64,000 nt of DNA from Rugalucina vietnamica (taxonomy: Eukaryota; Mollusca; Bivalvia; Lucinida; Lucinidae), in assembly GCA_964017185.1 (NCBI GenBank), contig OZ024879.1, positions 22,633,456-22,697,455 on the forward strand, written 5' to 3'. Position 1 is the first letter of the stretch, and each line of letters opens with the position of its first letter. This document shows, one piece after another, positions 27,217 through 51,427 of this stretch. Position numbers and translations under genes: made by a program. The notes beneath the pieces were generated by a model. It was not told the origin of the DNA and searched no databases. It worked only from the letters and a program-made list of their open reading frames with translations.

Positions 27217-27265
27217 TTAATATGTTAGCTCAAAACATTGAATCCCTGAGGCAATTCTTACTAAT

Positions 27266-27600: not shown

Positions 27601-27690
27601 ATGCAGTCGGCAGACCTAGCCTTGATCAAAGATATCCCAGGATACAGGATCATCATGAAGGCTGTCCTCAAACACCAGATACAACAACTA
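27601..27690 (+). CDS. Zinc-finger locus, shared coding exon 1
   Basis: First coding exon of the host gene. ATG at 27601 is the first Met after an in-frame stop. It encodes 30 residues starting MQSADLALIKDIPGYRIIMK and ends exactly at a codon boundary before GTAAGG. The product with exons 2 and 3 is the common N-terminal half of a predicted nuclear protein with alternative tails. The segment running through exon 2 recalls the start of uncharacterised bivalve proteins with variable C-termini. That resemblance is from memory and unchecked. An M1 MITE begins only 26 bp past the donor. Confidence 0.75.
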
Positions 27691-27716
27691 GTAAGGATTG
27701 TTTTGTGTGTAGCATA

Positions 27717-27953
27717 TGGGCGGCGATGCGAGAAAACAGGGTTTCAGGGTTTTGGACCAGGTCTGATTCAAAGCGAACTGTACAGCCTCATAAGCAAGTT
27801 AGAATCTTGAAATTTTGGTGGGGTGCAGAGGAGGAATTGTGCTTTCTGAGTAGGGAAAACAATGGTGCTGATCAGCTGTGCAGTTACTGCACAGCTGATC
27901 TGCGTCTTTGTTTTCTCATAGGCAAAAATCCGGTTCTCTCATGACCCGGCTCA
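27717..27953 (-). mobile_element. M1 MITE, full copy in intron 1
   Basis: Ends TGGGCGGCGATGCGAGAAAA and, inverted, TGAGCCGGGTCATGAGAG, with TA on each side. The internal cruciform is GGTGCTGATCAGCTGTGCAG paired with CTGCACAGCTGATCTGCG. Confidence 0.85.
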
Positions 27954-28290
27954 TATTATCATACTTGTATAATTGCGCATGTTTAGTGAACAATAATATT
28001 ACTGAAACCTGGTTACCTTTACGATAAACTGAGACATTTGCATGCCACATGATCAGGTTCTACTTAACAGTATTGCTGTGGTTTACATGTAATCAGATCT
28101 GTCATACATTACTGTCAATCTATGCTTAGGAGGTAGACAATTCAGAGACAAGATTGAGCATGAAAAGTCATGAAACAGCTCCTCGTAAAGAAGGGAAAAA
28201 ATGTTTCGGGGGTTATATGTCACGTGGCCAAAAATATAAATCATGGAAGACACAACTTAAACTATTATGACAAAACCAGACTCTTGCATA

Positions 28291-28363
28291 AGTGAAAACA
28301 AAGAGGCAGGCCAGATGCACAGAAAATGTACAGCAGATCAGCACCTCTGTTTTTGCTACATAG
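28291..28363 (+). mobile_element. M1 MITE, partial copy
   Basis: Only the diverged cruciform (GTGAAAACAAAGAGGCAG ... CAGCACCTCTGTTTTTGC) remains. Confidence 0.6.
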
Positions 28364-28479
28364 TGCTTTTGATATACTTCTTAAATCCAAACTTTCATGT
28401 CCCTAGTATGCTTGTTTATGTTGGACCTAATTTATAATCCCAAGGCAGTTTTTCTCTTTTTTAATCTCATTCACTATAG

Positions 28480-28636
28480 GTTGAGCAGCTCTCAGAGACT
28501 ACAGGAGAAGAGTCCCTCCTCCTGTCGGCATCAGTGTCAGATGGAAGCTTGAGTCATCTGGGATCAGAGTCAGCAAAGAGCTTTCTGGATGGTCATGAGG
28601 AGATCAAGTCACAGTTCCTGGGGCATGTACTGAAAA
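28480..28636 (+). CDS. Zinc-finger locus, shared coding exon 2
   Basis: Encodes 52 residues (VEQLSETTGEESLLLSASVS, then DGSLSHLGSESAKSF and IKSQFLGHVLK) between an acceptor CACTATAG and a donor AAAA/GTAAGT. It enters in phase 0 and leaves in phase 1, matching exons 1 and 3. No standard domain is recognised. It is acidic and rich in Ser and Leu, and could be a small helical interaction module. The intron downstream is 6.6 kb and consists almost wholly of repeats. Confidence 0.8.
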
Positions 28637-28781
28637 GTAAGTCCCATTTGAAAGGAGACAAATTATCAATTACCAGAAACTGACACAATCAGATCCATTT
28701 TCCCTACCGGACATAAAAGTCACAAATAAGTACTAATACACGGAGAGTGGCAGAGTGTGGTGGTGAAGTGTTAGAGCATCA

Positions 28782-31036: not shown

Positions 31037-31039
31037 AAT

Positions 31040-31755: not shown

Positions 31756-33911
31756 TTTTTAGCTCGACTGCATGAAGTGCATAGAGCTATTGCAGTCACC
31801 CCGGTCGTCCACGTTCCCGTGCGCGTTCCCGTGCGTGTGCGCGTGCGCGTCACACTTGCGTTAAAGTTTTCTAGAAGTCCATATCTTGACAACCACTCAT
31901 CAGAAAGCATTAATTTCATACTTGGACCATAGATACCCTGTAGGGTTAGCTTTCATTCCATGGCATTGGGCCAGGGGGTGGGGCTGGAGGTTAAAATCTA
32001 GAACACCTTCAAAATGGCAATTCTTATGTTAAAGTTTTCTAGAAGTCCATATCTTGACAACCACTCATCAGAAAGCATTGATACTTGGGCCATTGACACC
32101 CTGTAGGGTCGGCTTTCATTCCATGGCATCAGATCCCTGGGTCCATGCCAGGGGGTGGGGCTAGAGGTTAAAATCTAGAACACCATTAATAATAATGGCT
32201 TTTCTGTGATATAGTATTCTAGAAGTCTATATCTTGAAAACTTTTTATCAGAGAGCTTTCATACTCGGACCATAGGTACCCTGTAGGGTTGAGTTTCATT
32301 CCATGGCATCGGGCCCCTGGGTCCATGCCTGGGGGGTGGGACTGGAGGTTAAAAACTAGAACACTAAAAATAGATGTACTGCTGTGTAACTTTTACAAGG
32401 AAGCATATCTTGACAACAACTTATCATAAAGCATTCATACTTCATACACTTTAGGTTCCATGACATCGGACCTCTGGGTCGGAGTCAGGGGGGGGCGGGG
32501 CTAGAGGTCAAAATCTAGAACTCCCCGAATTTTTTTTCTTTTTATTTCTTAATAGAAACAACTTAGGAGGATGGTTGGTCATTCATCTTTTGACTTTGTG
32601 ACACTGACTTGTGTGTCATGACGGTAAGGGTCGGTTGACCTACTTTCCATGGTTCAGTGATTTTGCCTTATATCTTGACACTCAATTAGTATATTTTCTT
32701 ACTTCTTTCAGATTATGAGTTAGTACGACCAGGCCTTTGACCCCAATATACTTATAGGTCACTGTGACCTAATTTCACGGTTCAGTGATTTTGCCTTATA
32801 TCTTGATACTCAATTAGTATATTTTCATACTTTTTTCAGATTATGAGTGAGTATGACCAGACCTTTGATCCCAATATACTTACAGGTCAGTGTGACCTAA
32901 TTTCACGGTTCAGTGATTTTTGCCTTATATCTCGGTACTCAAATGGTTTATGAACAAACTTCTTTCAAAGTATGTTTGCGTATGACAAGACCTTTGACCC
33001 TGAAGTAGTCCTAGGTCACTGTGACCTAATTTCACGGTTCAGTGATTTTGCCTTATATCTTGACACTCAATTAGTATATTTTCATACTTTTTTCAGATTA
33101 TGAATGAGTATGGCCAGACCTTTGACCCCAATATACTTATAGGACACTGTGACCTAATTTCACGGTTCAGTGACTTTGTCTTATATCTCGGCACTCAAGT
33201 GGTTTATGAACAAACTTCTTTCACACTATGTTTGCGTATGACAAGACCTTTGACCCTAAAGTAGTCCTAGGTCAATATGACCTAATTTCACGGTTCAGTG
33301 ATTTTCCTTTATATCTCGGCACTCAATTGGTATATGAACATACTTCTTTCACGATATGTATGAGTATGACAAGACCTTTGACCGTAAAGTATTCCTGGGT
33401 CACTGTGACCTAATTTCATGGTTCAGTGATTTTGCCTTATATCTCGACACTCAGTTGGTATTTTTTCATACTTCTTTATGATTATGAATGAGTATGACCA
33501 CACCTTTAACCCAAACATACTTATAGGTCACTATGACCTAATTTCATGGTTCAGTGATTTTGCTTTATATCTCAACACTGAATGGGTATATGATCATTTT
33601 TCTTTCACATTATGTGTAAGTATCACTAGACCTTTGACCCTGCAATACTTATAGGTCAGTGTGACCTTTTTTCACGGTTCAGTGATTTTGCCTTGTGTCT
33701 TGGCACTCTGTTGGTATATGAACACACTTCTTTCACAATATGAGTGAGACCTTTAGGTAGTTATAGTTAACTTTCATGGTTCAGTGATTTTGCCTTATTG
33801 CATCAAGGCAAAAAGATGTATGAGCATAATGCTTTGGGTTACTGGTCGGGTTTGGCCTTATGTTTGACAAAGTCAGAAGCAGTCGAGCACGCTGTCCTGC
33901 GACAGCTCTTA
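31756..33911 (+). mobile_element. F2 tandem-repeat element with two array types
   Basis: It starts TTTTTAGCTCGACTGC with a hairpin (CTGCATGAAGTGCATAG), then a GTTCCCGTGCG/GCGTGC microsatellite, ~185-bp units to 32520, then about ten ~120-bp units (CACGGTTCAGTGATTTTGCC, TAGGTCACTGTGACC, TATGACCAGACCTTTGACC). The end is GCAGTCGAGC, the inverse of its start, then the hairpin GCTGTCCTGCGACAGC and TCTTA. The plan matches the other families, but the last four bases (CTTA) do not fit CTRR. Confidence 0.7.
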
Positions 33912-35171
33912 TTTTTCTTCTTTTTACTTCATAATAGAAACAACTTAGGAAGATGGTTGGTTATTCATCTTTTGACTTTGTGACACTGACTTGTGTGTCA
34001 TGACGGAAAGGCTCTGTTGACCTACTTTCCACGGTTCAGTGATTTTGCCTTATATCTTGACTCTCAATTTGTATATTTTCTTACTTCTTTTAGATTATGA
34101 GCTAATACGACCAGCCTTTGACCCCAATATACTTATAGGTCACTGTGACCTAATTTCACGGTTCAGTGATTTTGCCTTATATATTGACACTCAATTAGTA
34201 TATTTTCATACTTTTTTCAGATTATGAGTGAGTATGACCAGACCTTTGACCCCAATATACTTATAGGTCACTGTGACCTAATTTCACGGTTCAGTGATTT
34301 TGCCTTATATCTGGGCACTCAAGTAGTTTATGAACAAACTTCTTTCAAAGTATGTTTGCATATGATGAGACCTTTGACCCTGAAGTTGTCCTAGGTCTTT
34401 ATGACCTAATTTCACGGTTCAGTGATTTTGCCTTATATCTCGGCACTCAAATGGTATATGAACATACTGTTTTTATGATATGTTTACATATGACAAGATC
34501 TTTGACCCTGAAGTATTTCTAGGTCACTGTGACCTAATTTCATGGTTCAGTGATTTTCCCTTATATCTGGGCACTCAATTGGTATATGAACATATTTCTT
34601 TAAAGATATGTTTGCGTATGACAAGACCATTGACCATAAAGTATTCCTGGGTAACTGTGACCTAATTTCATGGTTCAGTGATTTTGCCTCATATCTCAAC
34701 ACTCAGTTTGCATTTTTTGATACCTCTTTCTGATTATGAATGAGTATGACCAGACCTTTAATCCAAAAATACTTATAGGTCTCTATGACCTAATTTCATG
34801 GTTCAGTGATTTTGCTTTATATCTCAACACTGAATGGGTATATGATCATATTTGTTTCACATTTTGAGTAAGTATGACTAGACTTTTGACCCTGCAATAC
34901 TTATAGGTCAGTGTGACCTTTTTTCACGGTTCAGTGATTTTGCCTTGTATCTTGGCACTCATTTGGTATATGAACACACTTCTCTCACAATATGAGTGAG
35001 ACCTTTAAATCTTAGTTAGTTATAGTTAACTTCCATGGTTCAGTGATTTTGCCTTATTGCATCAAGGCAAAAAGATGTATGAGCACAATGCTTTGGGTTA
35101 CTCTTGGGGTTTGGCCTTAAGTTTGACAAAGGTCAGAAGCAGTCGAGCACGCTGTCCTGCGACAGCTCTTA
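33912..35171 (+). repeat. Second copy of the F2 3' half
   Basis: From TTTACTTCATAATAGAAACA to the end hairpin it repeats 32531-33911 unit by unit (about nine ~120-bp units). The locus therefore has one F2 start but two F2 ends, by tandem duplication or by recombination between nested copies. Confidence 0.8.
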
Positions 35172-35235: not shown

Positions 35236-35904
35236 GCCACCACAGCAAAAAGACAGAGAAACAGTTTGCTGCAGGTCCAGGGAGAAAGTCCAACACCCAA
35301 GGGGTAAAATCCAACCAAGTCTCATATGATGATGAATCAGATGTCGCCTACTCTGACAACAGTTTTTATTCAGAACCTCAGCAAGCACCAGCTGTGCCAG
35401 TGACCTTGACACAAACTGTTGGAAGAAAGAAAAATAAATCAACAAAAACAGCTACTCATAAACCTGCTGACGTTAAACCACGACCTAAAAGGAGTGCCGA
35501 GGCTATGAAAAGCCCTTCAAAATTTGGCATTTACGTTGATGAGATTGATGACACAGAACTGAGTGACACTGATCAGGAACAATTAAAAACTGCAACAGTT
35601 ACTGAATCTAGTTCTGAGGAGACCCCTTCTAGTTACACCGATATTGTTCCTGTCTCAGGTCCCATACCTGTTTTACAAGCTGAGAATCGTGATGAAGGTT
35701 CTGCTGAATTTCATGTGGAAATGGGAGAATTTGGGAATGTAGAAACGTTTGTAGTGAAAAATGAAGGGGGTCAAGATACTGAAGCGGGAACGGTGCTGGA
35801 TGAAGATGACCCAAGCTGGGAACCAGGAACCAAGAAGAGAAGGAAGAGTTCTGGTGCCCGGTCTGTGGGTAGTGTGGGGAATGTGGCAGGGGACCAGGCG
35901 AAAA
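35236..35904 (+). CDS. Zinc-finger locus, shared coding exon 3
   Basis: The largest shared exon (669 bases) lies between the acceptor ATAATTGTAG and the donor AAAA/GTAAGT, phase 1 on both sides. It encodes about 223 residues, mostly disordered and charged: SHHSKKTEKQFAAGPGRKSN, DDESDVAYSDNSFYSEPQQA, an acidic block (YVDEIDDTELSDTDQEQ), a Ser/Glu-rich part, and near the end a likely nuclear signal (PGTKKRRKSSGARS). No folded domain is seen. It probably acts as a flexible regulatory linker carrying the nuclear signal. Reading on past the donor gives a stop after a few codons, so an unspliced form would lack any finger. Confidence 0.8.
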
Positions 35905-36148
35905 GTAAGTACAGTTTAGCGGTGATAGGTTTGGATACCAACTTCTCAGAGTAGGCTGGAGTGTACTGGGATTCCTAAGCTTCTGTTTGTATAGAACTAT
36001 TTTGACAGCACATGCATTTGGTACTGTGCACACTTGAGACGTCTTATCTTTAAAAAAATGTCTCAAAAAGCTTGTACATACTTTTTTTGTTTTGGTAGAT
36101 TTATATTTCTCAATTTGCCGTTTTGTTGTTTGAGATTTTTTGTTTGTT

Positions 36149-36391
36149 TGAGCCATTTCATGAGAAAGTAAAAAATTTGCATAGGCGAAAACAAAGGCAC
36201 AGATCAGCTTTCTAGTAACTGTGAAGCTTATCAGTGTCTTTGTTTTCGCTACACAGATAGTACAATTCCTCTTCCGTAGTAAATCAAAAATTTCCAGTCT
36301 CTAACCATCTTGTGTGCTTGAACAACTCTGTTTGGGACAAAAACTGTTTGGAAACCAAACCATATTGTTAGCTTTCTTGTGATATGGCTCA
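36149..36391 (+). mobile_element. M1 MITE, full copy
   Basis: Ends TGAGCCATTTCATGAGAAAG and, inverted, TGAGCCATATCACAAGAAAG. The cruciform is GCGAAAACAAAGGCACAGAT with CAGTGTCTTTGTTTTCGC. An F3 element begins a few bases after it. Confidence 0.85.
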
Positions 36392-36394
36392 TCA

Positions 36395-37566
36395 TTTTTT
36401 ATGCCCCCAACTAAAAAGTTGGAAGGGCATATTGCTTTCAGCTTGTCTGTCTGTCTGTGCGTGTGTGAGTGGGTGCGTCTGTTAGTCACTTTTTTAAACT
36501 TCTGAATGTTGCATGATAGGGATTTGAAATTTCATGTGTGTATTCCTCATGAAAAAATAGTTGACCCGTATTTTTTTTCTTGTCCGAGTTATGCCCCTTT
36601 TCTGAGTTATTTCCCTTTGAAAACAAAATTTGAAAATCTTGTGTGCAAGATATCTCGAAAAGTATTTAAGCTAGAACCTTCATATTTGGTATACTGGTTG
36701 GGTCTGATGAGTAGATGACCTGATTAACTTTTGAGAACTTTCCGTCAAATTTTGACTTGATTTTTCCACTTTTCGGTGAAATTTGAAACTTTTGAACGGT
36801 GAATGCTAGGGTTTTGAAATTTCATATACAGATTCCTCATGAAAAAATAGTTGACCCATATTTTTTTCATGTCCAAGTTATGCCCCTTTTCTGAGTTATG
36901 TCCCTTTGAAAACAAAATTTGAAAATCTTGTGTGCAAGATATCTCAAAAAGTATTTGAGCTAGAGCCTTCATATTTGGTATAGTGGTTGGGGCTGAGGAG
37001 AAGATAACCTGAATAATTTTTGAGAATGTTCTGTCAAATTTTGACAAAAATACAGAATTTTGAAATTTTGATTAATTTTTGCACTTTTCGGTGAAATATG
37101 AAACTTTTGAACGGTGAATGTTAAGGTTTTGAAATTTCATATACAGATTCCTTATGAAAATATAGTTGACCCATATTTTTGTTTATGTTCAACTTATGTG
37201 CCTTTTTGGAGTTATGTCCCTTTTAAAACAAAATTTGAATATCTTGTGTGCAAGATATCTCAAAAAGTATTTAAGCTAGAGCCTTCATATTTGGTACACT
37301 GGTTGGAGCAGAGAAGAAGATCACCTGATTACATTTTGAAGACTTTACGTCAAATTTTGACAAAATTACTCCATTTTGAAATTTTTACTCCATTTCTAAT
37401 TTATCTGCAAAAAGTTTACATTCTGTTTCTGGATCAAGGTCAAAACAGAGGCTTCAGGAAATAAAATTTCACTTCATTCAAATGAAATAAATGAATCATA
37501 CAAGCTGCCAGTTTAGGGACAAGCATACAGTTGGGGGCATAGTGTTTTACAAACACGCATTTCTAG
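36395..37566 (+). mobile_element. F3 tandem-repeat element, Helitron-like
   Basis: The start ATGCCCCCAACTAAAAAGTT forms a hairpin with GGAAGGGCAT, then come CTGT/GTGTGT microsatellites and three ~305-bp units (GAAATTTCATATACAGATTC, TATGCCCCTTTTCTGAGTTA, TGTGTGCAAGATATCTC). The end is AGTTGGGGGCAT, the inverse of the start, then the hairpin GTGTTTTACAAACAC and CTAG before T. Confidence 0.8.
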
Positions 37567-38502
37567 TTTACATTAAAGTACATGAGTTGCTACATGTACA
37601 TGTAAATGATCATAAAAGTACTTCTATATATATCACAGTGCCATGCAAACAGAGCTTACCGGTAACTCTTAGTATATGTATAAATTGAGCAGTGACTTGA
37701 GAAAATGCTTTTAATTAGATTCAGATCAGCTGCAATGTAATGGAGTTCAGTCCTTCTACTGTCCTTACATCATCCTTTGGAAACCACCGTTCCCCATTTC
37801 CATTGTTCAGAGACACTGTAAGCAAGAGTAATAATTGCCATTCATTCCCAATTCAAAAGTTATTAAAAGTGCTTCTAACATTTTGAATATTGGTTCAATA
37901 ATTGATGAAAATTTCAGCCCAAAATATAATAATGATAATTGAATTGTTGGTTTTCTCTATTTTGAAATTGCAAGCAAGGTCACAACTTTTCTTGAAAAAA
38001 AAAACCAAAAAACAAAACTCTATTTTTCACTTTCTTAACTTGAATCAAACCAACAGGGAATATGTAAGATATCCTTGATTGGGGTCATATAACATCAACA
38101 ATACCCTGATTTTTTTTTTTTTAATACTAATTTCAAGATTACCTCCCCTGTACATGTTAACGTTTTAATACATGTTTTATGTCTTTTGGGATGAAAATGG
38201 AAACTGATTTTGCGGGTGGTCCTACAAGGTCTTGGGTGGAATGCAGTTTGGTGGTTTGCAGAAGCAATTGACTCCTCCGCCAGCAAGGTATAGCCACGCC
38301 CACCCCTATTTCCTTAGACAAACATTGTGTTTTTGCACCTGTATTTACCTGTAAAAAGCACGTGTTGGTTTGTTTGTCTAACCCACGTGTTGTCTAACCG
38401 TCATTGACCGTTAGCTAATGTGCAGATTTTAATGGTCAATATAAAAATGAATATTAATGATGGGTGGTTTTACTGAGGACTCAATTGTAAAGACAGTGCA
38501 TC
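37567..38502. other. Intron, no firm feature
   Basis: No MITE or finger exon is certain here. A weak exon-like stretch near 37722-37833 is discussed among rejected items. A T-run lies near 38108. Confidence 0.4.
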
Positions 38503-38776
38503 AGGAAAACATGTCCATGCAATCAATACCCCCTTAAACCCCACTTTTATATAGTAAAACTGGGGTATGCAGGGGTATACCTATTTTTCTTATTTTTGCT
38601 CCAAAGCATAGATTGTGGGTACTCGTTAGAACCGCCTCGCCGAGGCGGTTCTGACGTGTACCCACAATCTATGTTTTGAGCAAAAATAAGAAAAATATCA
38701 AAATTTTTCTGATGAAAATTTTCGATTTTTGAAACTAAAAAATCTCTGTTTATTGCATGGGCAAGTTTTCGTAATG
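38503..38776 (+). mobile_element. M2 MITE, full copy
   Basis: Ends CATCAGGAAAACATGTCCAT and, inverted, CATTACGAAAACTTGCCCAT. The centre is a long hairpin, CATAGATTGTGGGTACTCG then AGAACCGCCTCG/CGAGGCGGTTCT and back. One side carries the AACTGGGGTATGCAGGGG segment. Confidence 0.9.
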
Positions 38777-40195: not shown

Positions 40196-40299
40196 TTGGA
40201 AGCAGCTTCAGCTTAATTTCATGGTCAGATTTTGTGTTGAAATACACCACACAAGCACAACAAAGACATGAGGGTTGACCAGTTACTTAGTTTATCGAT

Positions 40300-40467
40300 T
40301 TGTTTGTTGGCTTAATGTCCCTGTCAACAATGTTTCATTCATGTCAGGATGGTACATAGTTATTAAGCTTATTCTGTGAACCTCAAGAACACAACCCAGT
40401 GTCAGCAAGGATTGAATCCCCAACCTCTGGGTCAGATACTACCATTAGGTCACTCTGCGCCCCAACA
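40300..40467 (-). mobile_element. SINE
   Basis: The minus strand has GTGACCTAATGGTAGTATCT, GGTTGGGGATTCAATCCTT (B box) and a 3' module GTTGACAGGGACATTAAGCC followed by CAAACAAA. Confidence 0.75.
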
Positions 40468-40855
40468 CACATAGTATAGATATACACCATGACCTATTTA
40501 TAACACTATTGCTTGAAGCCAATTTCCGTGTAAGCTATCTAATCTGTGTTATAATGAGAGTAGAATGTATAGACATTATAAGAAAATAGTCTAAAATGAC
40601 CATTTGGGGTCCAACAATGATCAATGTTATATCCAAAATCATGTTATAACTAACCGTGTTGTAAAGAAGTCCAGGTGTATAAAGTTAAGGTAGATAAAGT
40701 CATGTTGAGACCAGCTGAAGGTTTGTCACCTTTCTGTATTATTGTTTCACAGTTTCTTACACTAATTCTGAGTAATTTGTCATTGTTATGTCCCAAAGAA
40801 GATATTTGAGTATAAGAGTATATACAAGTAACTGAAATGAAGCAGTATTGAGATA
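40468..40855. other. No recognised feature
   Basis: Intronic sequence without a supported gene or repeat. Confidence 0.35.
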
Positions 40856-40911
40856 GACTTTGTTTTTCGCATATGCAGATTGTTGTTGGTTTTGTCATGA
40901 TGGGGCTCATT
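40856..40911 (-). mobile_element. M1 MITE, terminal fragment
   Basis: CTTTGTTTTTCGCATATGC and TTGGTTTTGTCATGATGGGG with the end GGCTCA match the right half of M1. Confidence 0.6.
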
Positions 40912-41322
40912 TAATTATAAATCTACTTCTACCTGCACCCATTCTTCCTAATTATCAATTTATGAGTTAATAGTAAAAGCAAATAGAAATGTGCCCAAAG
41001 TACTGGTAATCTGCTTACCAGAGGCTTGCCTAGAACCAGGTTGTTTTGAGTGACTGTTCCAATATGACTTCAGCTTTTGATTATGGATGTTGTACATTAA
41101 AACAATAAAAAATACTGTCCAGATCAGCTAATCCTGATAGTATGGACTGGTAAAAAGGACTGGCCCCTGGTTAACAAGGGTGGCTTAAACACCACAACAA
41201 GCAGATTTCTTAATGAGTTCATTTTCCTTTGTGAGGCATAACAAAACCTGTCTTTGGGAGTTCTGAGGAGGTCCAAGTAGTTTAGATTTGGAACATAGAG
41301 GAATAGTGCTGTGAAAGGAAAA

Positions 41323-41559
41323 TGAGCCTATGCATGAGAAAACCAACAATTTGGGGTGTGGTTGGGGGGTGGACCTGAGGTCCTACACAAACCAAGCTGT
41401 ACAAGCACAGAAGATGGCTAGAGACATGATTTGGATTTAGAAAGTAGAAGAATGGTACAACCATGCAGCAAAAATGAAGGTGCTGATCTGCGAAGTTACT
41501 GCGAAGCTGATTTGTGCCTTTGTTTTCGCATAATGTTCGTTTGCTCATGACGCAGCTCA
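41323..41559 (-). mobile_element. M1 MITE, full copy
   Basis: Ends TGAGCCTATGCATGAGAAAA and, inverted, TGAGCTGCGTCATGAGCAAA, with AA on both sides. The cruciform is decayed in its left half. Confidence 0.8.
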
Positions 41560-41656
41560 AAAAAAGCTGCTAAGCTAGAATATCTTAAAGAATAAATTTT
41601 CCTTGTTAAAAGGAACGCTTGGCTAGTCTGTATATACCATTATTTGTCCGTGTGTT

Positions 41657-42031
41657 GTGGTTTTTCGTAGGTTTGTGGAGTTTTTCGGTAACTCGATTGA
41701 TCGCATCGGTCATGAGCACTTCCTCGCTACGGTGGATTTCAAGCTTTCGTACTTGGTCGGACCTAGGACAAAGTTCCGGGTTTTAGCATTATACGTCCAG
41801 ACGCCAGCTAAGTGTTTAACGTTAGATCCAAGTACGTCATTCTTCCCACAAGTCCTAATAAAAACCGCCGAGAGCAAGTCTGGGTTCCGTCTTCAATTGC
41901 TTTATTATACAAAAAGTGTAGCAAAACATTGCAACTGGAACCAGGCCCCTGGATGTCAAAGGGAAACCCCACAGATTGAAGGAAAAACCCCACGGATTGA
42001 GGAGAAATCCTCGTGTCGCCCCAAGCAATAA
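41657..42031 (+). CDS. Unassigned 124-codon open frame
   Basis: The frame (VGPRTKFRVLALYVQTPAKC, FFPQVLIKTAESKSGFRLQL) has a higher CG content than its surroundings and reads like protein, but the family is not recognised. A possible acceptor (TTTTTCGTAG) lies at its start. The phase does not fit exon 3 of the zinc-finger gene, so it is not placed in that transcript. It could be an exon of a different gene or a relic of a repeat. Confidence 0.25.
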   Translation: MVFRRFVEFFGNSIDRIGHEHFLATVDFKLSYLVGPRTKFRVLALYVQTPAKCLTLDPSTSFFPQVLIKTAESKSGFRLQLLYYTKSVAKHCNWNQAPGCQRETPQIEGKTPRIEEKSSCRPKQ

Positions 42032-42262
42032 CACCTCCTGCAGATTGAGATTGGTGCTCTAAAGAGGTTTTAATGTATTGGGAAGTTAAGAACATTGTAA
42101 GGTCACATTGGCAAGGCTTCTCTGGTATATATGATAATAATTTGATTTCAACCATCATTTCAACAAGCCTTCTCATATTTTACAGTGAATGATTAACTCA
42201 GTCAGACTCTATGATATCAAACTAATGGTTTATGATGATGCTTGATTGTAGTTGAGAAAGAT

Positions 42263-42586
42263 CAGGGGTTAGTAACTCGAAGGTATCGTAAGTTTCCCTT
42301 CTTACGACATACTTACAATGATCTTAAGATGATCACCTTAGAATTTACGCCCTTGCTATTGCAGCTACTCTAAACTATCATATTTTTTTCTTTTAAATGA
42401 AAGGTGCCACTTTGTTAGATGATACGATGCTAAGGTAGCTTGAGTTGATCGTAAAGTTACGATGCTGTTAAGCTATCACTGTGACTTAAGCTCCTTTTTC
42501 AGTTATTCACCATAATCCCTAAGAGATACTTAAGTTGGTCGCAAGATGATCTTAAGCTTAAGATGGCTTTGAGTTACTAACCCCAG
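42263..42586. mobile_element. MITE with GGGGTTAGTAACTC termini
   Basis: GGGGTTAGTAACTCGAAGG at 42265 and its inverse CTTTGAGTTACTAACCCC near 42584 are TIRs. The interior is rich in short palindromes of TAAGATGATC/GATCTTAAG type. Confidence 0.8.
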
Positions 42587-42924
42587 ATTCTTCAAATAAA
42601 AGTGCAGTTACGTTACATGTATGAGAGACATACTAAAATAATGCAGCATTGTCACAAGACTCAAACGAGTGTCTCAATTTAAATGATATTTAAAGCCAAG
42701 CATGCTTTGAATGTATCCAAATATAGACAATATAAAATAATTTGCTTCCTAGAAACGGTTGCTATTGGAGCCATTATTTGATGAAACTTAAGCATTGTCT
42801 GTGTTGTGGGTGGAGCTAGGAGCCGTTTTTTCCTAGAATATACCTAAATTCTTTCTTTAGTTTCTGATTATAAAACCTGACAATTTTCTAATACATGTGG
42901 AACATTGTACAGCACAGCTGTGTA

Positions 42925-43060
42925 AGACAGTACATTGACCTTGAGGTTAGCAAGCATTGAACTCCAGTTGGAATCATCAGGGGTTCCATCCTTACTAGTG
43001 CAGTGTTGTGTCCTTGAGCAAGACACATTAAAGCCCCATAATTTAAACCCAGACTCTGCC
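42925..43060 (+). mobile_element. SINE, diverged
   Basis: It shares GTGCAGTGTTGTGTCCTTGA, GCAAGACACATTAAAGCCCC with other SINEs, and a poor B box lies before it. Confidence 0.55.
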
Positions 43061-43121
43061 CCCGCTTGATTGAAACAGACAAGACAAAACAAATGATCAG
43101 ATTGAAAATTCTTGTGATGCA

Positions 43122-43215
43122 GAGTGGTGTGGTGGCATAGTGGTAGAGTGTAAATCCAGTGGCCCTGAGTTCAAACCACTACCTCTGCTTAGCTGTTTCC
43201 TTTAGTAGTCCCCTT
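43122..43215 (+). mobile_element. SINE head
   Basis: A-box GGTGGCATAGTGGTAGAGTG and B-box-like CTGAGTTCAAACCACTACC are at tRNA spacing. The 3' module is missing. It lies 117 bp upstream of the basic terminal exon. Confidence 0.65.
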
Positions 43216-43331
43216 TAGTAGTCCCCAAAGTGTGGTTAGTAACCAAGAAACATCTGCCGAATTAAATAAATCAAACAGCTGATTTAAACATTTTCTATGT
43301 CAACATCAAGAGGACCAATTGTCTGTTACAG

Positions 43332-43726
43332 TCACAAAACGTAAAGTTGCACAGTCCCCAGCTGAAAGGCAGCGCCACTTCAGAGAAAGGAGAGATGCCG
43401 ACCCTTTGAAAAGACAACAGTACTTGTTGAAGTCAAGGACAAAGTACCAACGTGACAAAGTCGTGGGCAAGAGAAAGCTGGTGAAAGACATGACAAAAGC
43501 AGAGCATAGAAAGAAAAAAGCAGAGTGGAGGCAGTGTAAACGAAGATCCATAGGGAGAGTGAAAATTAAGATGTGTGAAGGGAAAGGTTCAGAAACAGGA
43601 AAAGGTGCTGCTAATGGTGATGTTTATGACACCATAAAAAGGAATGTTGAAGGGTCAAGTGATGCTAAGACACCGAACGAGATTGTAGAAAAAAACACAT
43701 TAGTTATTAAAACTGAAGTTGAATGA
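43332..43726 (+). CDS. Zinc-finger locus, alternative terminal exon D (basic)
   Basis: It has the acceptor TGTCTGTTACAG and a phase-1 start, so exon 3's last A completes an Ile codon. Then 130 residues follow to TGA. The start is strongly basic: QSPAERQRHFRERRDADPLK, then RQQYLLKSRTKYQRDK and a Lys/Arg-rich stretch (HRKKKAEWRQCKRRS). The rest is low-complexity and acidic. The RQR..R.RRDADP.K...YL pattern is, from memory, common in uncharacterised invertebrate proteins. It may bind nucleic acid, which is inference. With exons 1-3 it gives a 436-residue protein without zinc fingers. An AATAAA overlaps the stop (43726-43731). Confidence 0.75.
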
Positions 43727-43959
43727 ATAAATGTGAGAAAATGATTTGAATTTTGTACAAAATGATTTTGAGTTGAAAGAAGGTGAAGATGGATAATATA
43801 TCCTTCTGTCACTATTTAATTCTCTTGATGAGTTTGGAGTTTGCAGTGCCACTGAGTTTATCTTCTGGGCATATTTAGATTGTATATGTATTTCAAAAAC
43901 GAAGGATCATTATTTTGAAATATCAGAGATAATCTGAGGCATTTTAGTCGCTTAACATA

Positions 43960-44196
43960 TGAGCCGCATCGTGAGAAAACCGGATTTTTGCCTAGGCGAA
44001 AACAAAGGCGCAGATCAGCTTCGCGGTAACCGCGAAGCTGATCAGCGCCTTTGTTTTCGCTACTCGGATAGTACGATTCCTCTTCTACTTAAATCCGAAA
44101 TTTCAAGCTTTTAGCTCTTTTCTGAGCTTGTACAGGCCGGTTTGTGTCGGACCTGGTCGGAAACCCCGAAGACCGGTTTTCTCGCGTCGAGGCTCA
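43960..44196 (+). mobile_element. M1 MITE, best-preserved copy
   Basis: Ends TGAGCCGCATCGTGAGAAAA and, inverted, TGAGCCTCGACGCGAGAAAA, flanked by TA on both sides. The cruciform arms are near perfect: GCGAAAACAAAGGCGCAGAT, then CAGCTTCGCGGTAACCGCGA, closing with the inverse. This is the reference copy for the family. Confidence 0.95.
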
Positions 44197-44240
44197 TATA
44201 TCACTGAATCCATATTGACAAGACTTAGCCTTGACATGAC

Positions 44241-44428
44241 TGAGCCTTCACATGAAAAAACCAAGAATTAAGTTTTCCAACCAGTCGGACACAAATGGGT
44301 CTGTACAGTCACAGAAGCAGGCTAGAGTCTTGAAATTTTGGATTTAAGTAGAAGACGATTGTACTATCCATGTGGTGAAACCAAAGGTAACTGCACAGCT
44401 GATCTGCGCCTTTGGTTTCACATATGCA
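44241..44428 (-). mobile_element. M1 MITE, truncated copy
   Basis: TGAGCCTTCACATGAAAAAA starts it, and ACTGCACAGCTGATCTGCGC with the following TTTGGTTTC ends it. It stops where the small MITE at 44431 begins. Confidence 0.75.
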
Positions 44429-44430
44429 TG

Positions 44431-44543
44431 TTCACACCGTATTAGCGGCAGTCGCGAACAACCATTTTGATTTTTTTGGCAGTCGGGAACGCAGTTTTGT
44501 ATAAAGTCACATGTTCCACGTTGCTGCTAATACAGTGTGATGT
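44431..44543. mobile_element. Small 113-bp inverted-repeat MITE
   Basis: TTCACACCGTATTAGCGGCA and, inverted, TCACACTGTATTAGCAGCAA are the ends. A related motif lies at 1096-1115. Confidence 0.65.
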
Positions 44544-44689
44544 TGTCGGTTTTCTTATGTGTCATCACAAGTGTTTTACATGTACTGATGTAGCACAGTT
44601 GCTTTTGTGGAATGGACCTGATCAACTCGACATCATTCTGGTTAATTTCTTTCATGAACAGTTGTCATGAAAATATTTCTCTCTTAACT

Positions 44690-44740
44690 TGATTGAAGAA
44701 TTGTTGACTGGGACATTAAATCTTTAATCAAACAAAAACT
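44690..44740 (+). mobile_element. SINE 3' tail fragment
   Basis: GTTGACTGGGACATTAAATC followed by a CAAACAAA-type tail is the conserved SINE 3' module without its head. Confidence 0.6.
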
Positions 44741-44769
44741 TTAGGTATAACAGAGAAATGACCCAAAAA

Positions 44770-45000
44770 GAGGAGCACAGGTACAGTAGCCTACTGATAG
44801 AGCTTCAGACTCTGAATGTAGAGGTCCTGGCTTCTAACACCACTTTGATTTCATGTTGTGTCCTTGAGCAAGAACTATCAACTCCCCAGTCCCCACATTA
44901 CTGTAAATACCAAGGCAAGGAAGGATGGCACTGTCTCAATATGACTGAAAACAATGTTGACAGGGATGTTAAACTACAACACAAACAATTTCAACAGTAG
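44770..45000 (+). mobile_element. SINE, full length
   Basis: A-box-like CTACTGATAGAGCTTCAGAC, GGTCCTGGCTTCTAACACC, GTTGTGTCCTTGAGCAAG and TGTTGACAGGGATGTTAAAC with an A-rich tail. Confidence 0.75.
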
Positions 45001-45065
45001 AAGATGTTTAACATGTACTTGTAGTTTTAATTTTATACAATAAGTAAAAGTATCATTTCGAGAAA

Positions 45066-45290
45066 CTGGTTATGGGTAGCGTGGTGGTCTAGTGGTAGAG
45101 CGTCGGACTATGAATCAAGAGGTCCTGGGTTTGATACCCACAAGGGTCACTGTGTTGTGTCTTTGAGCTTGACACATTAACTCCTCAATCATGTACTGGT
45201 CAATACCCAGGAAGCGGTGGCTCCATTCACACATGACTGAAAAATTGTTACATGGGACTTTAAACCTCAATACAAACAAACTGGTTACCG
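45066..45290 (+). mobile_element. SINE, full length, best copy
   Basis: A box TGGTCTAGTGGTAGAGCG, B box GGTCCTGGGTTTGATACCC, central CTGTGTTGTGTCTTTGAGC and CCCAGGAAGCGGTGGCTCC, and tail ACATGGGACTTTAAACCTCA with CAAACAAA. It serves as the reference for the SINE calls here. Confidence 0.85.
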
Positions 45291-45322
45291 CTAGCATTTA
45301 TGCATGCAAAGTCTACATTCTC

Positions 45323-45553
45323 ATAGCTGCGTCATGAGAAAACTGGATTTTTGCATATCCAAAAACACAGACGTAGATCAGTTTAATATGCACATGTAAC
45401 TGCACAGCTGATTAGTGGCTTTGTTTTCGCTCATACGATAATTAATCTTATACAAAAAGCTGAAATTTTAAGCTTGTTTGAAGCTGTACAGAGCAGAATG
45501 TGTCAAACTTGTTTGGAAACACCCAATACCTTTTTTTCTGGTGATTCTATTTA
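45323..45553 (+). mobile_element. M1 MITE just upstream of finger exon A
   Basis: It has the left terminus AGCTGCGTCATGAGAAAACT, a decayed cruciform and the right end near CTTTTTTTCTGGTGATTC. It ends about 28 bp before the exon's splice acceptor. Confidence 0.75.
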
Positions 45554-45581
45554 TCTTGACATCTGACTGTTCCTATTTCAG

Positions 45582-45790
45582 TTTCAGGTCCCCTATATCC
45601 ACATCTGCAGGCAAAAGGTCACTGCTGTATCTACTGTAGCAAATTGTTCCCCACCCCATCTGCTTTAGTAAAACATGTTAGAGTGCATACTGGAGAGAAA
45701 CCTTACAGTTGTGACATCTGTGGAAAACTCTTTACAGAGAAGGGACATTTGAAGAGGCATGGGATTACACACATGAATAAAGATTTGTGA
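45582..45790 (+). CDS. Zinc-finger locus, alternative terminal exon A (two C2H2)
   Basis: The acceptor CCTATTTCAG is followed 6 bases later by a second TTTCAG, so two in-frame starts are possible. Phase 1. The 68 complete codons and TGA encode two C2H2 fingers: CIYC...HVRVH with the helix TPSALVK, the linker TGEKPYS, then CDIC...HGITH with the helix EKGHLKR. All zinc ligands and the 12-residue spacing are intact. The fingers should bind DNA with a specificity different from exons B and C because the helix residues differ. With exons 1-3 the product is 374 residues. M1 MITEs lie on both sides. Confidence 0.85.
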
Positions 45791-45811
45791 TAGAAACGTG
45801 TGTGCTTATAT

Positions 45812-46031
45812 CAGTGCAGCCTCACCAGAAAACCAACAATCTACATGCCATGTGCAAAAACAAAGACATAAGCTAATCAGCACCTTTGTTTTGGCAACAT
45901 GGATAGCATAATCACTCTTCTAATTAAATCTGAAATTTCAAGTTTAAACTATTCTCTGTGGCTGTACAGCCTGGTACATGTTTGACCTTGTCTGAAACCA
46001 AGATTCTTGGTTTTCTAGAGCAGTGGCTTAA
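45812..46031 (+). mobile_element. M1 MITE just downstream of finger exon A
   Basis: Diverged copy with CTCACCAGAAAACCAACAAT on the left, CAGCACCTTTGTTTTGGCAA in the core and GATTCTTGGTTTTCTAGAGC on the right. It has the same orientation as the copy before the exon. Confidence 0.7.
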
Positions 46032-46039
46032 TTTAGACT

Positions 46040-46185
46040 TCCGGGTATGTGGACTGTGTTTCTAAATTGTTGTGCATGTTACCAAGAGAGAAGCCATTCT
46101 AGAGAGAAACCATAGTTTTGTGGAATCTGTTGAAGGGGAATTCGGGAAAGCATCCAGTCACACACCATTCGTGAGAGTATTTACT
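46040..46185 (+). pseudogene. Decayed zinc-finger exon
   Basis: CATTCTAGAGAGAAACCATA and GTTTTGTGGAATCTGTTGAA align with the finger-linker segment of exons A-C (CATACTGGAGAGAAACCTTA, GTTGTGAGATCTGTGG). In frame it meets stops and lacks zinc ligands. It looks like a former alternative terminal exon that has lost function. Confidence 0.5.
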
Positions 46186-46780
46186 GTCAAATATGAAGAT
46201 GCTTGATCTCCTCTTGGATAAGTTTTCTTGATAGTTGAGGTGCAGCATCTATTGTTTGAGTGGAATTCAGTTAGAATACATTGACACTGTTAGTTTCTTT
46301 AATTGGTGTACATAGTTTTTAAAGATTAAGCCTGTGCGAATCATGGAAACGGATTGGGTTTAAGAATTTAAATAACAAGCTTACACTGAGAAACTGTATC
46401 ATTTCACTTTCCACTGTCAAAAAGGTGAAGAAAAAAAAAAAAAAAAAAAAGAAATGTAAAGGCCTTGTCACACATAAGCAAAAGTTCCTCAACATAGATT
46501 TGCGTTTAAATGTGAATATGAATTCTTAATTGTTCAAGTACGAGCTGTTGACTGGGATGTAAATCAATCAGACAAAACTATTTTTTTGCCATTGTATGCA
46601 AGTATATGTTGTGGGACTCCCACTTGTATGACAAGACTTTTAGACCTGCAAGTAACAAGCAAATTGTTTAGTTTTTAGAATCAAAGTATGGATCAAAAAC
46701 AGAGTTTAAAAAAATCTGGATCCTTATTCATTGATGATTAGGCATGCATAAATATAGCAGCTTTGTATCTTCCTTAACAA
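46186..46780. other. Intron with A-run and SINE tail fragment
   Basis: A long A-run lies at 46429-46450, and a SINE 3' module (GCTGTTGACTGGGATGTAAA) near 46545-46575. No gene is supported. Confidence 0.45.
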
Positions 46781-46789
46781 AATCCTTGT

Positions 46790-47003
46790 CTTTAATAAGT
46801 TGTCTTTTGTTTGTATTGATGTATAAGGTCCCAGGCAACAATTTTTCAGTCATGTTGGGATGGAGTCACCTCTTCCATGGTATTAACCAGTACCCTGGGG
46901 GGTTAATGTATCTTGCTCAATTTGACGACACAACATGGTGAACTCAGTACCACTCGATTCAGAGTCTGGTGCTCTACCACTATGCCTCCGAGCTCCCCTT
47001 AAT
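46790..47003 (-). mobile_element. SINE
   Basis: The minus strand reads GGCATAGTGGTAGAGCACCA, GAATCGAGTGGTACTGAG, CCAGGGTACTGGTTAATACC and a tail module with CAAACAAA. It is a member of the 45066-45290 family. Confidence 0.75.
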
Positions 47004-47464
47004 AAGTTGTCAGTTACAAAATTTATTATTTGTCTCTAGAAATGAAATGAAAAGTTAACCCATATCTGATGATTGGAGTTGCCCAAAGGGAGTGCACTTA
47101 TTATAACATGTGCACAAATTAGAGTGAATATGGTATATGGAATTCAGACATTTTATGAGTTATTAAGTACAGGGAGTGTACAAAAGAAAATGTTTTATAG
47201 ACCAAAAGAAATGGTGCTGATTAGCTGCAGCTACACAACTTTCAAACACCCTTAAGCCCTGAAAATGATAAAGGATGTGGAATGTGCAATATTGCAAAGC
47301 TATTTTCCTACTGACTGAATTATCTGATTACTGGTCTGAGTCTGCTCAGGAAAGGTGATCAAGTAGAATCATCCATGCATTTCAGTTGGTTTTTTTTCGG
47401 TGTTTGTATTTTGTAGCATATTTTGGATTTCATGACATCGCATTGTTGGGTAGAATTAAGTCCT

Positions 47465-47526
47465 ATGAAATAATGGCAAGCTGTTGACTGGGACATTAAG
47501 CAACAAATCAAACAAACAAACAAAAG
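47465..47526 (+). mobile_element. SINE 3' tail fragment
   Basis: AGCTGTTGACTGGGACATTA followed by (CAAA)n. It abuts an M1 copy. Confidence 0.65.
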
Positions 47527-47733
47527 CTTTTGCCTATACGAAAACAAAGGCACTGATCAGCTGTGCAGTAACTGCACAGCTGATCAGTGCCTTTGTTTTC
47601 ACTACTCAGAAAGGACAATCTCTTTCTTTCTTAAATGTGAAATTTCAAGTTTTTAGCCTTCTTCTTAGACAGAACAGGTTGGTTTGTGTCAAACCTGGTT
47701 GGAAACGGGTTAGATAGGTTTTCTTGCATCACA
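47527..47733 (+). mobile_element. M1 MITE, left end missing
   Basis: A near-perfect cruciform (CAAAGGCACTGATCAGCTGT then GCAGTAACTGC and the inverse) with the M1 right half. The left terminus is replaced by a SINE tail. Confidence 0.85.
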
Positions 47734-47750
47734 TATGAATAATGCAATGT

Positions 47751-48010
47751 TCATCAGGAAAACCTGTCCATGCAATAAATACCCCCTTAAATCCCAGTTT
47801 TATATAGCAAAACTGGGCTGTGCAGGGGTATGCCTACTTCCCTTTTTTTTGCTCCAAAACCGAGATTGTGGGTACACGTTAGAACCACCTCGCCAAGGGG
47901 GTTCTAACATGTTCCCACATTCTATGTTTTAAGCAAAAATATCAGATGAAATTTGCAATTTTTACAGGTGAAAATATCTCTGTATATTGCTTGGGCAAAT
48001 TTTTGTAATG
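47751..48010 (+). mobile_element. M2 MITE abutting the acceptor of finger exon B
   Basis: It has termini TCATCAGGAAAACCTGTCCA and, inverted, CATTACAAAAATTTGCCCAA. It ends at 48010, and exon B's acceptor AG is at 48018-48019, so the MITE supplies nearly all of the sequence just upstream of this splice site. Confidence 0.85.
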
Positions 48011-48019
48011 TCCTTTCAG

Positions 48020-48240
48020 TGCCAACAACACCAAAGCAAGAGAAAGATAAGAAAACATATGGTTGCCATTTCTGTGAGAAGACTTTCTTCAGTCCTTTTC
48101 ATGTGAGAAGACACGAGAGAATCCATACTGGAGAGAAACCTTACAGTTGTGAGATCTGTGGCAAATCATTCAATGATAAAGGGAATTATAGCAAACATGT
48201 GGCAAGACATGCTAAAGATGAAGCCTTAATTTATTGTTGA
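48020..48240 (+). CDS. Zinc-finger locus, alternative terminal exon B (two C2H2)
   Basis: The acceptor TGTCCTTTCAG lies directly after an M2 MITE. Phase 1, with exon 3's A making an ATG codon at the junction. It encodes PTTPKQEKDKKTYG, then CHFC...HERIH with the helix SPFHVRR, TGEKPYS, and CEIC...HVARH with the helix DKGNYSK, ending DEALIYC and TGA. All zinc ligands are present with 12-residue spacing. With exons 1-3 the protein is 378 residues. M2 MITEs in opposite orientation lie on both sides. Confidence 0.85.
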
Positions 48241-48315
48241 GGCTGTAACTGATACTGATACAATGGAATCTTAACTGTTTACAACAACAGAAAAGGTATT
48301 GAGCTCAAAGTAGCC

Positions 48316-48602
48316 ATTACCAAAACATGTCTATGTGATAAACAGATTTTTTTAGGTTGTAAAAAATGAAAACTTTCATGAGAAAATGTTTGATATTTTT
48401 CTTATATTTGTTCAAGTATTGATTGTGGGTACACATTAGTACTGCCTTGCTGAGGCGGTTCTACATTGTAATGGGTACCCTCAATCTACATTGTATGTTT
48501 TGAATCAAAAATGAGAAAAATATGTACACCCCTGTAAACCCCAGTTTTACTTAAAAAGAAGTGCTTAAGGGGGTATACATTTCACAGACATTTTTCATGA
48601 TG
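48316..48602 (-). mobile_element. M2 MITE downstream of exon B, inverted
   Basis: CATTACCAAAACATGTCTAT begins it, the hairpin is partly decayed (GCTGAGGCGGTTCTACATTG), and ACCCCTGTAAACCCCAGTTT with CATTTTTCATGATG ends it. It is opposite in orientation to the copy at 47751-48010. Confidence 0.8.
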
Positions 48603-48680
48603 ATGGCTCCATGTTAGTTGGCTAATAACACTAGGCCACAACAGCTGAAGTGATTTGTAACAGACCTCAGTCCGTTTTAA

Positions 48681-49175
48681 GGTCAGGATGTTGTAAAACA
48701 TTGTTATGCAGTGTTGCGTGCGATGTTGCTTTGCGACACCTAAGCAGAACTAGAATTGACGCTATTATGTCACGCCTTTTTGAAACAGGCGAATGCTGTA
48801 ACTTTTATGTCATTTAGTACAAATTTCTCCATTAAAGGCTGCGACAAATTTTCACCAAAACACAGAAAATCAGAATTTCTGTCGTAAAGGGCATTAATTA
48901 AAATTCTCGCCTCAGTCACACATTGAAATGCGATGCATGTTCGCGCCAAGACGTTATGCATGTTCGCGCCACGACGTTATGTTCCATCGCTGAAAGTACC
49001 AAAAACTAACTACCATACATAGCAAAACCTGAAATAGCACAAAAACGAGCACGGTGTCAAAGAATTTTTTTCAAGCAACCTGTTCCAAAGTGATTCACAC
49101 AGATAATGTCAGTTTTTATATCCCCAGCATTTATGACGACTGGTATATAGTTTTCGCTTTTCCATTCGTATGTTT

Positions 49176-49208
<33 letters not shown>

Positions 49209-50572
49209 CTAGCTAGCTAGCTAGCTCGCTTGCTTGCTCGCTCGCTCGTTTGTTCGTTCGTTCATTCGTTTGTTCGTAACGTTTGTAGAATTTTCATCAA
49301 AGTTTTTGTTAAAGTTTCTCTGGTGGTGTATATCTCATGAACCAGTGGTCAGAAACCATTCATATTTTGGACCATAGGTACCCTATAGGGTTTGCTTTGT
49401 TTCCATGACTTCGGACCCCAGGGTCCATGCCCAGGGGTGGGGCTGGAGGTCAAAATCTAGGTCACCTTTAAAATGTGCTGTTCATAATGTTAATGTTTCT
49501 TCTCCTAGTCCATATCTTAACAAACAATCATTGGGATGTGTTCTTATTTAGTTCATAGATACCCTTTTGGGTTTGCTTTTATATTTCATGTCACCATCCC
49601 CAGAGGTGGGGCTAGAGGTCAAAATCAAGGACACATTTATAATATGATAGATACCATGATAAATGTTCTGTAAGTCTATTTTCTTGACATCTAGGATCAC
49701 AAAGTCTTGTCAGAAAGCATTCATACTTAGACCATAGGTACCATGTAAGGTTCAGACTCTAGGGTCCATGTGTGGGGGTGGGGCTAGAGGTCAAAATCTA
49801 GACCTTCTTTAAATATTTTATTTTCTGTTTTTTTTTTTCTTCACCACCATGTTTAGAAGTCATTCATACTTGCACCATAGGTACTCTATAAGGTTTGCCT
49901 TGTAGACTCTAGGGTCCATACCCAGGGTTGGGTTAGAGGTCAAGATCTAGGACATCTAATTTTTTTTTTATTATTTTTTTTTTTTTTTAATTAATATTAT
50001 TGAAGAATGACATTCTATTTTCCATCTAGGACCGAGGACCTGACCCGCAATATCCGCGATCAAGTCCTAGATTGAGTATACAAGTCAGCTCTGTATACTG
50101 TTATGAAATAGATCTATCATTCTACTACATTACCCCACCCCATGGTTTTAGACAGTGCTTTTGCAAATACAAATTTATAAGTAGTACTTGTTGAGGTTGC
50201 TCTCTTTTATTCGGGAATGCAGGTTCATTGTATTAGGGTCAGTGAGCATGTATGGGGCGGTGGGCCTAGGGGTGTAGGGGAGCTACCAGCCGGGGGTATA
50301 TGTGCCTCTCAAGGAACTTTTTCTAGTTTTTAAAAAATTGTTGTGGAATTTAGGAGAAAAATATGTTTATGTGTGAAATCCGACATCTATTTCCCTTTTC
50401 CCTATTCCATTCAATGGCAAAAATGAAGTTCTTGGATTGCCTGTAGCGCAAAAAATAATCAGATAGTCAAGGAATATTTTTGCATATTCCAATGGTGGAG
50501 CTTTTAATACATTGATATGCAAAGAATAAAAAAAAATCCATCACATGTGGCGTTTTTTACAACACCCTGACC
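48681..50572. mobile_element. TTAA-flanked TIR element (piggyBac-type duplication)
   Basis: TIRs GGTCAGGATGTTGTAAAA and, inverted, GGTCAGGGTGTTGTAAAA are flanked by TTAA at 48677-48680 and 50573-50576. The F5 element fills 49113-50326; without it the element is about 0.68 kb and non-coding. TTAA suggests piggyBac, though other groups also use TTAA. Confidence 0.75.
49113..50326 (+). mobile_element. F5 tandem-repeat element, Helitron-like
   Basis: It starts TTTTTATATCCCCAGC and continues with a long GTTA/GCTA/GCTC/GTTC microsatellite (49170-49270), then about four ~185-bp units (GACCATAGGTACCCTATAGG, GGGGTGGGGCTGGAGGTCAA) related to F2's first array. The end is GCCGGGGGTATAT, a rough inverse of its start, then TTCTAG before T. 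It is nested in the TTAA element. Confidence 0.7.
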
Positions 50573-50576
50573 TTAA

Positions 50577-51212
50577 GCCTCTTCTGATAGCCTGGAATGT
50601 AGGAACTGAAACCCATAACCCTGCTTTTAATGTGTAACTACATGTCCAAAATATATTTTGATTTCTGCATACAAGTATATTTCTATTCCCAGTGTTTAAT
50701 GCAGTATGCCCCTGAAGCACAAAATAATAGTCAGCTTGTATCAGTGTAATACAAAAAGCTTTTACTTATTTTATTGCTGGCTTAAGGTAAAATATAATTC
50801 ATACACACATTAGAAGTGCTGTTGTTTAGTTATTAGCTTATTAAGCTCTTATTACCCACTAAGGATTCCAAATATTCACATTGAACTGCATTGAAGATGA
50901 CACAGGAGATAAAAAATAGAAAATGTTCTGATTTGTCTGTTTGTGTATAACTTTTTTTTTTAATTTTTTGCCTTGTCCTTTATTAGTGATTTGGAGTTAA
51001 GCATCCCACCTAATAGCTCAAGTCATATAAAGAAGGGATCTCAGTTTAATGTCTTATTCGAAAACTGGAGAAGCACAAGAACCCACTACCAGTTTATTAT
51101 GAGGCCAGTGCCCTGATCACATAATGGCCATGGAGGCTTTTGTAGGCAGTAATGTTCTTATATTCTTACTTGTTGTGATTTCAAATTAACAATTAAAACA
51201 TTAACTTTTCAG
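50577..51212. other. Intron upstream of exon C
   Basis: No repeat of the families above is recognised. T-runs lie near 50950. It ends in the acceptor ACATTAACTTTTCAG. Confidence 0.4.
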
Positions 51213-51427
51213 ATGTAGATACCTTCAGCATTTTCCCAAGAGAAAAACAACAATTTATACCATATAGATGCTCCTTCTGTGGGAGGATTTGTCAGTCTAA
51301 TTCACATTTGAGACAACATGAAAGAATTCATACTGGAGAGAAACCTTACAGTTGTGAGATCTGTGGGAAATCATTCTCAAAGAAAAGTTCCTTGACAAGG
51401 CACTTTTTAGCTTTACATAATTCATGA
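51213..51427 (+). CDS. Zinc-finger locus, alternative terminal exon C (two C2H2)
   Basis: The acceptor is TTAACTTTTCAG, phase 1. It encodes [18 protein letters not shown], then CSFC...HERIH with the helix [15 protein letters not shown], and CEIC...HFLALH with the helix KKSSLTR, ending in TGA at 51425-51427. The second finger has four residues between its histidines, an accepted variant. The linker DNA is nearly identical to exons A and B, which points to exon duplication. With exons 1-3 the protein is 376 residues. An AATAAA lies at about 51549, a plausible polyadenylation signal. Confidence 0.85.

Follow-up and report, generated by a model that had tools for sequence, protein, structure and literature searches.

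In a 64,000-nucleotide stretch of contig OZ024879.1 (GenBank assembly GCA_964017185.1, Rugalucina vietnamica), referred to here as the window, positions 27601 to 51427 probably hold one animal gene in which three coding exons are shared and at least four terminal exons, all in the same orientation, are alternatives to one another, a layout resembling that of the Drosophila gene lola. Splicing is predicted from the DNA sequence, and we consider it likely that exon 3 is joined to at least two of the terminal exons. Each of these, termed tails A to D, begins after an AG, carries on the phase 1 left by exon 3 and stops at its own stop codon. The finger and basic content of the tails, not this acceptor-phase-stop pattern, carries the case beyond chance.

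The three shared exons (Table 1) were reproduced from the sequence with the coordinates, matching phases and phase-1 last donor given in the original prediction. Joined, they comprise 916 nt, that is 305 codons plus one base, and an in-frame TAA starts 9 bases upstream of the exon 1 ATG. Exon 3 is rich in serine and lysine and then runs into an acidic stretch (residues 171-285 of the shared part have a net charge of -19), at the end of which lies a KKRR cluster that may serve as a nuclear signal. Base composition varies by codon position in exon 3 (p = 8e-14), and its donor is equalled or bettered by 1.1% of the GTs in the window; all splice-site scores come from an approximate matrix. No second copy of the N-terminal exons was found anywhere in the window. 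As had been claimed, the N-terminus has no recognisable BTB domain: Pfam detected none in the joined 305 residues (E up to 1) and none upstream in the three forward frames of 19701-27600 (E up to 0.05), where a BTB domain split over small exons could escape. The N-terminus had 0 matches among PDB sequences at E up to 10, and exon 3 had 0 among PHROGs. Pattern searches of viral contigs gave 59 matches for exon 2 and 5 for exon 3, and a search of bacterial and archaeal genome contigs gave 37 for exon 3; 0 of these were confirmed, and both collections say nothing on animals. Intron 2 contains two blocks of a 128-bp tandem repeat at 32533-35054 (families of 14 and 15 register positions).

Three of the tails encode a pair of C2H2 fingers with differing recognition helices and the fourth is basic, which bears out the original description. 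Cys/His spacing and profile agree on two fingers each in B, C and D, with scores of 39.3, 41.1 and 44.7 bits (PF00096 cut-off 25.2), and a six-frame pattern scan of the whole window placed C2H2 fingers in these three exons only. In the usual numbering of helix positions from -1 to 6, the seven-residue stretches are TPSALVK and EKGHLKR in B, SPFHVRR and DKGNYSK in C, and SNSHLRQ and KKSSLTR in D. All six are different, with some single positions common to tails, such as the His that occupies position 3 of the first finger in both C and D. Exon B could also be entered through an alternative phase-1 acceptor, with the exon starting at 45588. Upstream of tail C, repeat DNA (47830-48014) extends to at least 48010, within about 10 nt of the acceptor, and there is a phase-0 acceptor with a better score at 47968; part of this splice site may derive from a mobile element.

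Tail A stands apart from the finger tails, with which it has no tblastn match. Its best Pfam match has an E of 0.39, far under the cut-off of that family, and its 6 matches among PDB sequences at E up to 10 (best E 0.26) were taken as chance. A weak match to one PHROGs entry without assigned function (E 0.0023) is probably explained by the K/R-rich composition, and 83 pattern matches in the viral contigs, again no guide to animals, yielded 0 confirmed relatives. The structure predicted from the single sequence is mostly helical in the first 63 residues and too weak to use (mean pLDDT 60.3, pTM 0.27). The basic tail (ERQRHFRERRDADPLKRQQYL...) may resemble an uncharacterised basic motif of other animal proteins.

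Table 1 Features of the proposed gene and of related elements in the window. Positions count from the first letter of the window; a slash marks the exon-intron border.
Feature	Position	Strand	Description
Exon 1, coding part	27601-27690	+	30 codons, phase 0 at end; donor CTA/GTAAGG
Exon 2	28480-28636	+	157 nt, phase 0 to phase 1; donor AAA/GTAAGT
Exon 3, last shared exon	35236-35904	+	669 nt, phase 1 to phase 1; donor AAA/GTAAGT
Terminal exon A, basic tail	43332-43726	+	131 codons including junction codon, pI 10.3, stop; full protein 436 aa
Terminal exon B, C2H2 pair	45582-45790	+	cores 45626-45688, 45710-45772; stop; full protein 374 aa
Terminal exon C, C2H2 pair	48020-48240	+	cores 48064-48126, 48148-48210; stop; full protein 378 aa
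Terminal exon D, C2H2 pair	51213-51427	+	cores 51269-51331, 51353-51418; stop; full protein 376 aa
Decayed finger-exon copy, not an exon	46083-46165	+	nhmmer E 9.9e-07 with profile of the three finger exons
Palindromic element copies	5090-5144, 5657-5676, 27858-27912, 36190-36209, 41505-41524, 44001-44055, 44397-44416, 45871-45890, 47543-47597, 51952-52006		

The contents of the tails were compared with shuffled sequence. C2H2 motifs occurred in 0 of the tails that arose in 50 shuffles, and the 32 K/R in 85 residues of tail A were reached in none of 300 second-order shuffles, the maximum being 22. Between the finger copies, compared as three pairs over 49 codons, dN was 0.40, 0.43 and 0.40 at dS of 1.28, 1.41 and 0.89, respectively (Fisher p 0.0047, 0.0030 and 0.046). 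An origin of the exons as repeat DNA was rejected, as exons 1-3 and tail A had 0 repeat coverage in the window and the finger exons were matched by one another only.

Several results weigh against a gene of this kind. The acceptors are middling: among 7239 scored AGs on both strands, the fraction scoring as well was 0.041 for 45582, 0.071 for 48020, 0.075 for 43332 and 0.141 for 51213. The phase-1 entry, own stop and whole-codon length claimed for each tail held, while the label of a good acceptor proved generous. A search for exons with an acceptor, phase-1 entry and own stop, at least 65 codons and an acceptor score of at least about the weakest of the four gave results near chance, with 9 on the forward strand of 35905-64000 and 4 on the minus strand, compared to a mean of 3.87 and a maximum of 10 in 100 first-order shuffles. 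The nine are the four named tails, a second acceptor for tail B and four others, and the agreement of phase and stop was therefore discarded as proof in itself. Forward open reading frames of at least 147 codons, as present with tail A, arose in 20 of 200 shuffles of either order, so their length alone was likewise rejected as proof of this tail. Codon-position base composition reached significance neither for the pooled finger tails (p 0.076) nor for tail A (p 0.2). Silent differences between the finger exons were rarer in the finger linker (p 0.011, 0.069 and 0.17 by pair), and dS thus varies from one part of the exon to another. The N-terminus belongs to an unfamiliar kind, its best Pfam match, DUF6910, being sub-threshold (E 0.0028, 17.9 bits vs a cut-off of 27).

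The 3' ends belong on the same side of the balance. AATAAA occurs within 200 nt of the exon end for tail D only, which has ATTAAA 58 nt and AATAAA 122 nt beyond its end. Tail B has ATTAAA at +133. Past tail C the hexamers are GATAAA (+97) and ATTAAA (+591, +657), and the 700 nt after tail A hold AATATA alone, at +69. Judged by these hexamers, D has a convincing putative poly(A) signal and B a plausible one, and those of A and C are poor. In addition, tail A contains weak phase-1 donors at 43605, 43617 and 43659 (scores 0.57, 1.01 and 0.02), and it could therefore be an internal exon in some mRNAs, giving a basic-plus-finger product.

The same exons might instead belong to neighbouring genes, with exons 1-3 and the basic tail forming one gene and the finger exons ending others that have short or distant first exons. 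The basic tail is indeed the one closest to exon 3 and is without detectable similarity to the finger tails, and the stronger phase-0 acceptor at 47968 lies upstream of tail C. Moreover, one first-exon look-alike, running from an ATG to a phase-1 GTRAG over at least 30 nt, was found in 35905-43331, at 36401-36464 (shuffle mean 2.0), and there are 10 looser ones (GTRNG, at least 3 nt) ahead of tail A and 1, 2 and 8 in the three inter-tail intervals. We nevertheless regard this arrangement as fairly unlikely. Canonical look-alikes numbered 0, 0 and 0 in the three inter-tail intervals, where few were expected (shuffle means 0.83, 0.60 and 0.83) and where the scan covered single-exon starts. In all four tails, the stretch from the nearest upstream in-frame stop to the acceptor is free of in-frame ATG codons, so each needs splicing to an upstream coding exon that ends in phase 1, and a separate start appears unlikely. 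Pfam (E up to 0.05) detected no family in the three forward frames of 35905-45581 and, in those of 45791-55692, zinc-finger families only, at exons C and D. The lack of a second N-terminal copy in the window and the one phase common to all four tails also argue for a single gene.

Alternatively, several tail exons could be spliced in series into one mRNA to build a longer array, their stops being read in some transcripts only. Tandem finger-pair exons of one phase can make long finger arrays, and the weak donors in tail A (up to 1.0 at 43617) make a basic-plus-finger protein conceivable. Against this stand the stop in every tail exon and the position of the donors in the finger tails: the best phase-1 GT of C and of D (score 0.42) sits at the first cysteine of finger 2 and that of B (0.41) ahead of finger 1, and the sole phase-1 GT beyond the second finger in any of them, 48236 in C, scores -9.8. 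The pairs are therefore not easily chained into a six-finger protein, and we rate serial splicing as very improbable. It is unlikely, too, that all but one or two of the tails are decaying relics, out of use, a reading which overlaps both the single gene and the neighbouring genes. It draws on the decayed copy at 46083, on the repeat DNA adjoining tail C together with the weak variant that is C's nearest poly(A)-like hexamer, and on the acceptor score of tail D, the lowest of the four. The three finger tails are, on the other side, open over more than 200 nt with complete Cys/His sets, and dN lies below dS between them at a dS of about 1. A locus of the lola and mod(mdg4) kind, as originally proposed, thus remains the best account of the anatomy, given the lack of a BTB domain, the single N-terminal copy and the lack of local starts and of a chaining donor; the part of that proposal by which exon 3 serves more than one tail stays an inference.

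In a single gene with swapped tails, the phase-1 donor of exon 3 would be joined in the pre-mRNA to one of the four tails, and cleavage and polyadenylation would follow after that tail. The product would consist of the 305 shared residues and either one of three C2H2 pairs with differing helices or the basic tail. Presumably, the choice of tail would be regulated and the finger pairs would bind different DNA. At a guess, by analogy with BTB, the first 84 residues might form an interaction domain common to all products, and the acidic part of exon 3 might be an effector region.

A short palindromic element containing AACAAAGGCGCAGATCAGCT has 15 matches at up to 3 mismatches in the window, compared to 0.01 expected. 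There are copies 0.3 kb past the donor of exon 3 and, for each tail, no more than 0.6 kb away. Pairing between copies could in principle draw the donor and the tails together.

The decayed copy of a finger exon (Table 1) aligns to exon C with a score of 46, the maximum in 200 shuffles being 25. Its translation in the finger frame is QERSHSREKP*FCGIC and then a further stop. This fourth copy fits a gain and loss of tails: judging from the one relic, the locus seems to acquire tails by duplication and to lose them by decay, and the three finger tails may have arisen by duplication of one exon and subsequent divergence. Further tails downstream, which had been thought possible, did not appear within the window, where no convincing copy was found up to position 64000 (next nhmmer match E 0.55; other scans negative).

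Several other elements were noted. The repeat at 45077-45280 contains tRNA-like text near 45077-45142 (gtggtctagtggtagagcgtcggact...gggtttgataccc), and we take it to be possibly a tRNA-derived SINE; ARAGORN called no tRNA. The segment 45193-45280 of this repeat recurs in inverted orientation at 46806-46893. Rfam, at gathering cut-offs, had no match. Retroelement remains occupy 13616-19699, with a zinc-knuckle open reading frame just under the Pfam cut-off, an endonuclease-like one and two reverse transcriptases on opposite strands. In the retroelement check, 4 of 5 open reading frames were matched at E up to 0.001, the one at 7224-7655 being without a match. At 57776-59153 and 61081-62160 there are tandem arrays whose units recur about every 156 and 166 bp, respectively.

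Among the titles listed as matches in our literature search, none dealt with such a layout in a mollusc or with tail swapping without a BTB domain; most subscription journals lie outside its coverage. The arthropod genes that invite comparison include broad, tramtrack and fruitless, which have alternative tails with a C2H2 finger pair, as proposed here. Their N-terminus is a TTK-type BTB domain, whereas the N-terminus of the present locus scores above no Pfam cut-off. For lola, at least 20 isoforms are described that combine common N-terminal exons with one of many C-terminal exons, three of these isoforms being without fingers (PMC1947980). The present locus is alike in its common front part and in tails that mostly, but not always, carry fingers, and the basic tail A would correspond to the fingerless isoforms. 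It differs in having four tails compared to about 20 and no BTB domain that was found. The gene mod(mdg4) likewise joins a common 5' exon part to variable 3' parts; it carries a BTB domain, and its tails are FLYWCH in most cases, with some encoded on the opposite strand (PMC4667647). Here, no BTB domain was found, and the four tails, C2H2 pairs or basic, all share the same strand, for which ordinary cis-splicing would suffice.

TTK-type BTB domains are described as multimerising and are reported from arthropods only, and many factors with such a domain exist as several isoforms, typically distinguished by their DNA-binding domain (PMC11426971). In its sequence anatomy, the locus shares with these genes a common 5' part and terminal exons of one phase with their own stops, and it lacks a detectable N-terminal BTB domain. 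On present evidence, it is best read as analogous, not homologous, to the arthropod BTB genes with swapped tails, and not as a member of their family. If the window is molluscan, the layout would be convergent. Whether tail swapping evolved here independently of the arthropod TTK-type BTB genes, outside the arthropods, on an uncharacterised N-terminal domain and with tails that are duplicated and decaying, is in our estimate an evenly balanced question. Intact, diverged and decayed tails stand side by side in the window and suggest how a tail repertoire may grow and shrink. If the proposal is true, the locus would offer a second independent case for how one donor picks among many terminal acceptors, and it would show that the layout known from the arthropod genes can arise without a BTB domain.

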